Source of the DNA: Candidatus Krumholzibacteriia bacterium
GTDB lineage: Bacteria; Krumholzibacteriota; Krumholzibacteriia; JAJRXK01
Assembly: GCA_029932915.1 (NCBI GenBank)
Contig: JAOZPE010000010.1
Coordinates: forward strand, 31,340-75,058
Direction: 5' to 3'
DNA length: 43,719 nt
Part shown: positions 33,539-35,851 of the stretch, piece by piece
How positions within the stretch are numbered: position 1 is the stretch's first letter
Layout: each line of letters starts with the position of its first letter
Translations under genes and position numbers: made by a program
The notes under the pieces: generated by a model
Database searches by the model: none
Told to the model about the DNA's origin: nothing
Seen by the model: the letters and a program-made list of their open reading frames with translations, nothing else

Positions 33539-33578
33539 CGGCTCTGTACCTTCCCTCTACCGGAAAGGAGGTGCGGGC

Positions 33579-34634
33579 ATGAGCGCGTCCGAGCGCATCC
33601 GTCTCACCCAACATGCCGGCGCCGCCGGCTGAGCGGCGAAGATGAGCCCGGAGGATCTGGGCCGCATCCTCGAAGGACTTCCCCTGAGTGTCGACGATCC
33701 GCGCGTGCTGGTGGGCTTCGAATCGTCGGACGACGCCGGCGTCTACCAGATCGACGAGGATCGGGCGCTGGTGCTGACCGTCGACGTCATCACTCCCCTG
33801 GTGGACGACCCCCGCGATTTCGGACGCATCGCCGCCACCAACGCCATCAGCGACGTCTGGGCCATGGGGGGCCGTCCCCTGGTCGCGTTGAACATCTCCG
33901 GTTTCGCCGTCGGCCTGCCGGTGGAGGTCTACCAGGAGATCCTCTCCGGGGCCTCGGAAGTGGCTCGCGCAGCCGGAGTGGCCATCGTCGGCGGTCACAC
34001 GATCAAGGACCAGGAGATCAAGTTCGGAATGGCGGTGGTGGGCGAGGTCCACCCCGATCGCATCCTGGCCAACACCGGAGCCCATCCCGGCGACGCGCTG
34101 GTGTTGACCAAGGCCCTGGGAACCTCGGCCCTGGTGACCGCCTTCAAGAACGACGCCTTCGGTGAGGACGACCCGCGCTACCGGGCCATGCTCGCCTCGA
34201 TGACCCGGAGCAACCGTGAAGCGGCGCGCCTGGCGGCGAAGGTGGGCGCGCACGCGGTGACCGACGTCACCGGTTTCGGTCTGAGCGGTCATGCGCTGGA
34301 GATGGCCGAGGGAAGCGGTGTGTGTTTCGAGATCTCCTTCTCCGCCCTGCCGGTGTTGGAAGGAGCGATGGAGATGCTCCAGGAGAACTTCACCTGCGCC
34401 GGCGGCCATTCCAATCGGGAACGCGCGCGGGGAAAGATGGAGATCCCCGACGGCATGGAGCGTTTCGAGGAATACCTCCTGCACGATCCCCAGACCTCGG
34501 GCGGCCTGCTCATGGCCCTTCCTCCCGAAGAAGCGGCCGCGGCCGCCGCGCAACTGTCGGCCTCGGGCCACGCGGCGGCGGTGATCGGTCGTGTACTTCC
34601 CGTACAGGGCGCTCCCCTGCAGATCGTCCGCTGA
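33579..34634 (+). CDS. selD: Selenide, water dikinase, selenocysteine-containing (UGA at 33630-33632)
   Basis: SelD makes selenophosphate from selenide and ATP. The real start is ATG 33579, with AAAGGAGGT six bases upstream. Codon 18 is TGA (33630-33632), flanked by IRLTQHAGAAG before and AAKMSPEDL after. This aligns with the E. coli SelD stretch around Cys17 and Lys20, so UGA encodes selenocysteine and the enzyme has 351 residues. Further SelD motifs are ESSDDAGVY, DFGRIAATNAISDVWAMGG, IVGGHTIKD, TDVTGFGLSGH and DPQTSGGLL. The second Cys of the usual C/U-G-C-K loop is Ala here; the catalytic Lys is kept. A conventional call would start at ATG 33642 and lose the active site. Selenocysteine machinery (selA, selB, selC) must lie elsewhere. 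Confidence 0.95.
33641..33668 (+). promoter_or_regulatory. Predicted bacterial SECIS element of selD
   Basis: GCCCGG (33646-33651) pairs with CTGGGC (33657-33662, one G-U pair) around the loop AGGAU, and GATG (33641-33644) can pair with CATC (33665-33668) below. The apical loop begins 19 bases after the UGA and has G as its second base, which fits the published rule for bacterial SECIS elements read by SelB (loop 16-37 bases downstream, G in the first two loop positions). Confidence 0.7.
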
Positions 34635-34827: not shown

Positions 34828-34876
34828 AACGAGCCTCCTACTTTGGAACGACCCATGTCACGGATTGGAGCTGAAC

Positions 34877-35851
34877 ATGTCCGAACGCGTCGCCGTCTAC
34901 ATCGATGGAGCCAACGCCTACTTCGCACAGAAGGAAGCCCTGAACTGGTGGATCGACTGGCCCTCCTTCCTTCGGTGGGCCGGCGAAGGACGTGAAGTGG
35001 TCAGTGCGCGCTGGTACCAATCGTATCGCAATCCGCCCGAGCCTGAACAGGAGCGCTTCCTGCACCATCTGACACTGGTGGGTTTCGCCGTCCGCAAGAA
35101 GATCCTCAAGAGCATCTACGACCGCGAGACCGGCCAGACCTCACTCAAGGGCAACCTCAACGTCGAACTGGTCATCGACGCATTGACCGAGGCCGCGCAC
35201 TACGACACGGTCATCCTCGTCACCGGAGACAGCGATTTCGTACCCCTGGTCGAGGCCCTGAGGGTGCGCGGCAAGCGGGTCATCGTCGCCGCGACCCAGC
35301 AGAACGTTGCGGTCGAACTGCGACAGGCGGTCGGCGTGAACTACGTCGATCTGCGCGACCTGCGCGACCGCATCGAGAGCGACAAGCGTGGACCCGAGCG
35401 CGTCACGGTCGCCGACAATGGCTATGAGCCACCCCGGGAGGATCCCAACCGGGGAAACGGTGATGAGTGGGTGGAAGACGATGACGAATACGTCGACGAC
35501 GGTGAACCCAATGGCAACCTCCGCGGCAACGAGAACGACCACTACAAGGTGACTTCGGCCCTGGATCCGAATCCGCCCTCGGTTCCGCACGAGAACATCG
35601 ACCTGCCCCAGGAGGGCGAGATCATCCGCTGCCACGTACAGGCGGTGAAGAAATACGGCGTCTTCCTCGATCTGCACGAGAGCGCCAAGACCCTCCTGCA
35701 CGTCAAGGACATGCACCGGGGCTACGTGGCCGACGCGGCCGAGTACTACCGGGTGGGCGAGGAAGTGACCGTCCAGGTGGTGGGCATCGACTGGAGCCGC
35801 CAGCCACCGGAGGTCCGCGTACAGGTTGTCACCCCGGAGATGGAGTACTAG
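34877..35851 (+). CDS. NYN-domain (LabA-like) ribonuclease fused to an S1 RNA-binding domain
   Basis: The start is ATG 34877 with GGAG six bases upstream; 324 residues. The NYN/PIN-like domain (about 3-165) has the expected metal-binding acids: Asp10 in AVYIDGANAYF, Asp101 in ELVIDAL, Asp118 and Asp120 in LVTGDSDFVPLV. A very acidic linker (about 180-235) joins it to an S1 OB-fold (about 245-318) with GEIIRCHVQAVKKYGVFLDL and LLHVKDM. NYN proteins are RNases or RNase-like; S1 domains bind RNA. The fusion suggests a targeted endoribonuclease in RNA decay or translation control. I infer nuclease activity from the conserved acids. It ends nine bases before the PAP2 gene. Confidence 0.9.
   Translation: MSERVAVYIDGANAYFAQKEALNWWIDWPSFLRWAGEGREVVSARWYQSYRNPPEPEQERFLHHLTLVGFAVRKKILKSIYDRETGQTSLKGNLNVELVIDALTEAAHYDTVILVTGDSDFVPLVEALRVRGKRVIVAATQQNVAVELRQAVGVNYVDLRDLRDRIESDKRGPERVTVADNGYEPPREDPNRGNGDEWVEDDDEYVDDGEPNGNLRGNENDHYKVTSALDPNPPSVPHENIDLPQEGEIIRCHVQAVKKYGVFLDLHESAKTLLHVKDMHRGYVADAAEYYRVGEEVTVQVVGIDWSRQPPEVRVQVVTPEMEY

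Follow-up and report, generated by a model that had tools for sequence, protein, structure and literature searches.

The window, i.e., the whole stretch of 43,719 nucleotides analyzed here, carries a selD gene of a Krumholzibacteriota-class bacterium in which an in-frame TGA at codon 18 almost certainly encodes selenocysteine (Sec). In the proposed mechanism, which draws on knowledge of the protein family for Sec insertion, SelB binding and SelD enzyme activity, translation would initiate at 33579, SelB bound to a hairpin just past codon 18 would bring Sec-tRNA-Sec to the UGA, and the ribosome would then read on to 34634. The resulting SelD would use ATP and selenide to form selenophosphate, and Sec18, located in a mobile N-terminal loop, would serve as the catalytic residue. 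Because SelA would use selenophosphate to produce Sec-tRNA-Sec, SelD is expected to feed its own synthesis along with that of its clients, two peroxiredoxins and a SelW-like protein. The features are listed in Table 1.

Table 1. Features of the Sec-containing selD locus in the window, and related genes elsewhere in the same genome (G000; contig and positions given)
Feature	Position	Strand	Basis or remark
Shine-Dalgarno sequence AAAGGAGGTG	33564-33573	+	sequence; upstream of ATG 33579
selD, selenide water dikinase, 351 aa, predicted Sec at residue 18	33579-34634	+	TIGR00476, PDB 3u0o, family alignment
In-frame TGA, codon 18, predicted to be read as Sec; equivalent to E. coli SelD Cys17	33630-33632	+	
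ATG of Met22, start taken by a naive ORF caller, giving a truncated 330-aa ORF	33642-33644	+	
Predicted apical hairpin of a bacterial SECIS	33646-33662	+	covariation across 49 and 40 sequences; local fold energy
NifS-like cysteine desulfurase-SelD fusion, 739 aa	L046:5083-7302 = G000:C5:46085-48301	-	second gene, on separate contig C5
Peroxiredoxin L153, TGA at peroxidatic Cys	G000:C32:29014-29397	+	FTFV-TGA-PTE
Peroxiredoxin L154, TGA at peroxidatic Cys	G000:C5:69649-70050	-	FTFV-TGA-PTE
SelW-like (Rdx) protein L157	G000:C40:32190-32399	-	CVQ-TGA, i.e., a CxxU motif

From the ATG, the selD translation runs MSASERIRLTQHAGAAG-TGA-AAKMSPEDL... up to the terminal stop at 34632-34634, and sites equivalent to the Shine-Dalgarno sequence (AGGAGGTG) lie upstream of selD in many of the relatives whose loci were read. 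The read-through protein matches TIGR00476 with 360.2 bits (cut-off 125; residues 8-318 on profile positions 1-310 of 311) and aligns to E. coli SelD (PDB 3u0o, E = 9e-68) gap-free across the UGA, which places residue 18 on Cys17. An earlier note on this DNA had held that any standard annotation would begin at 33642 and drop the catalytic residue. The ORF reading bears out the first part, as this ATG is the first start codon 3' of the TGA; the word "any" is too strong, since the RefSeq plasmid selD WP_213543930.1 is annotated across its own in-frame TGA. Pipelines often truncate selenoproteins, according to a 2026 review (PMC13188914). The protein encoded by the next gene downstream of selD (34865-35851 of the window, plus strand) combines a NYN ribonuclease-like domain with an S1 RNA-binding domain C-terminal to it.

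We searched 118 genomes for SelD with an in-frame TGA and, by our count, found such a match in 65 of the 79 genomes of the same class. Among the 50 SelD loci that were read, the window's own included, 49 have TGA at the codon equivalent to selD codon 18; the fiftieth locus (L148) was missed by the motif search and stands outside the 49. The codon is embedded in the motif G-U-[AG][ASC]K, with Gly before it and [AG][ASC]K after it, and its occurrence in the same column of 49 of the 50 loci indicates that the position of the TGA is not due to chance. This conserved column, along with the gap-free alignment, confirms the proposal of the earlier note that the UGA falls at the Cys17/Sec position of a frame opened by the ribosome site and the ATG at 33579.

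Conservation also bears on two other explanations of the TGA. If it were a true stop, translation from the upstream ATG would end after a 17-residue leader, and SelD would be made in truncated form from Met22, where the first start codon past the TGA opens the 330-aa frame. However, the strong ribosome site stands before 33579 rather than before 33642, the sequence of the N-terminal loop is conserved across the TGA in relatives, the truncated protein would lose its catalytic residue, and the genome contains the full Sec machinery; a true stop is therefore very improbable. In the relatives, the SelD N-terminus is complete and the equivalent codon is TGA, as opposed to a start at Met22, so these genomes do not show the shortened SelD that the earlier note had named as evidence against its reading. 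Alternatively, the TGA could stem from a sequencing error, or from mutation of a gene undergoing decay, given that an original TGC is only one base away. Dozens of independent genomes share this TGA, and the hairpin that follows it covaries; this leaves the explanation a vanishingly small probability, and TGA conservation refutes it in practice. Two genomes of the class encode a free-standing SelD, about 359 aa long, whose reading frame has no stop inside it (G020:C83:5546-6532 and G037:C179:5311-6291), with a NifS-SelD fusion alongside; these genes are possibly Sec-to-Cys conversions inside the class.

The predicted SECIS hairpin downstream of the UGA comprises a stem of 7 bp (33646-33652 with 33656-33662) closed by the loop GGA (33653-33655; GGR generally), such that it spans 14-30 nt past the UGA, with the loop 20 nt away. 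These dimensions fall within the published constraints on bacterial SECIS elements, i.e., a loop of 3-9 nt, a G in the first two loop positions and a spacing of 16-37 nt (PMC13188914). Across 49 sequences, 78.1% of the cells of the hairpin are paired, compared to at most 46.8% when the partner strand is slid by 1-3 columns; in a subset of 40 sequences, the paired fraction is 82.1%. Changes on both sides of a pair were observed for 5 of the 7 pairs, amounting to 49 cells versus 13.4 in shuffled controls, and none of the 500 shuffles scored as high. It should be noted that these counts are subject to a coding constraint that conserves part of the sequence, that the related sequences are non-independent, and that in several relatives the assigned stem is incomplete, with a broken lower stem. 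For the window alone, the local 21 nt fold with -11.2 kcal/mol (z = -2.37), whereas longer single-sequence folds are no better than shuffles (39 nt, z = -1.27; 65 nt, z = -0.16); the assigned hairpin also faces competition from an alternative pairing. Because of these weak longer folds and the competing pairing, the SECIS assignment rests on the comparison of relatives. RNAalifold (ViennaRNA) gave no consensus structure for 30 sequences, probably owing to subclades with variant stems, and was replaced by explicit pair counting; an alignment of 17 sequences chosen for good pairing was kept out of the statistics, to avoid bias. As expected for a bacterial SECIS element, to which SelB is predicted to bind, the hairpin shows compensatory changes across relatives.

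The genome that contains the window (2.92 Mb in 98 contigs, 98% complete, 4% estimated contamination) encodes the remaining components, spread over different contigs of the bin: a full-length selA (contig C58, 446 bits), a full-length selB (contig C48, 356 bits, above the cut-off, profile positions 2-576 of 581) and tRNA-Sec (selC; contig C12, 72 bits), with the anticodon TCA (UCA) assigned by ARAGORN. Together with selD, these genes constitute the bacterial Sec trait within a single genome; the working Sec pathway that the earlier note took to be implied is thus supported by the very genes, selA, selB and selC, for which it had advised a search. The selenouridine synthase mnmH/ybbB (TIGR03167) had no match in the genome.

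We also considered that the TGA is read as an amino acid other than Sec, through an alternative code or general suppression, because an open frame by itself cannot tell which residue is inserted. However, the frames of selA, selB and the NifS-SelD fusion are uninterrupted by stop codons, meaning that TGA does not serve as a general sense codon; where it is found, it occupies redox-active Cys positions (SelD, peroxiredoxin and the CxxU of SelW), and a tRNA-Sec with the matching TCA anticodon is present. Insertion of another amino acid is accordingly given next to no probability, and decoding as Sec is the reading we retain. For the peroxiredoxins, the genome's own paralogue has Cys at the corresponding position (FTFVCPTE). 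Past the TGA of L154, on its 3' side, there is a hairpin with a GGUC loop that is SECIS-like in appearance. FdhA with UGA was not found in the genome, and AhpD/CMD and MsrA selenoproteins were sought with none found. The combination of a Sec-SelD with no UGA-containing FdhA detected agrees with the observation that Sec-decoding organisms without FdhA possess a Sec-SelD (Zhang 2006, PMC1794560).

The NifS-SelD fusion, the second SelD of the genome, has Cys at its catalytic position (GLGCACK). Thirteen other genomes of the class, scattered over families, have near-full-length homologues with 61-69% identity; the three genomes of the same family lack them. Tetranucleotide composition sets the C5 stretch slightly apart (0.947, compared to 0.974-0.984 for other contigs of the genome); for this reason, C5 may be a contaminant contig or the result of horizontal transfer. 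A rather unlikely arrangement is that the two selenophosphate synthetases have divided roles: the fusion, which would channel selenium from its cysteine desulfurase/Sec lyase domain, would prime or back up the system, and the Sec-SelD would depend on the fusion to start its own synthesis, then supply most of the selenophosphate once selenium is available. The occurrence of a Sec-SelD beside a Cys-type fusion makes the first synthesis of a Sec-dependent SelD a testable question. More broadly, the conserved Sec-SelD indicates that the Sec pathway is widespread across this class of Krumholzibacteriota, and four genes of the window's genome (selD, the two peroxiredoxins and the SelW-like protein) can be concretely re-annotated.

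Sec-containing SelD is among the commonest bacterial selenoproteins, with the protein of Haemophilus influenzae as an example, and its mechanism is textbook knowledge. The family has long been described and accounts for 19% of prokaryotic SelD (Mariotti 2015, PMC4561486). The window's selD shares with the known Sec-SelD/SPS2 (Zhang 2006, PMC1794560; Mariotti 2015, PMC4561486) the Sec codon at the Cys17 position, a SECIS directly downstream, here predicted, and the accompanying SelA, SelB and tRNA-Sec; it differs only by lineage, and a literature search found no paper linking the name Krumholzibacteriota to selenocysteine. E. coli SelD (PDB 3u0o) is alike in fold family and in the aligned catalytic position, but has Cys17-Gly-Cys19 where this protein would have Sec18-Ala-Ala20, i.e., the second Cys is missing here and the following Lys is retained. 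NifS-SPS fusions have already been described (Mariotti 2015, PMC4561486), and their counterpart is the fusion in the same bin, not the selD of the window. The window's selD is a further case of the well-described Sec-SelD, in a little-studied phylum.
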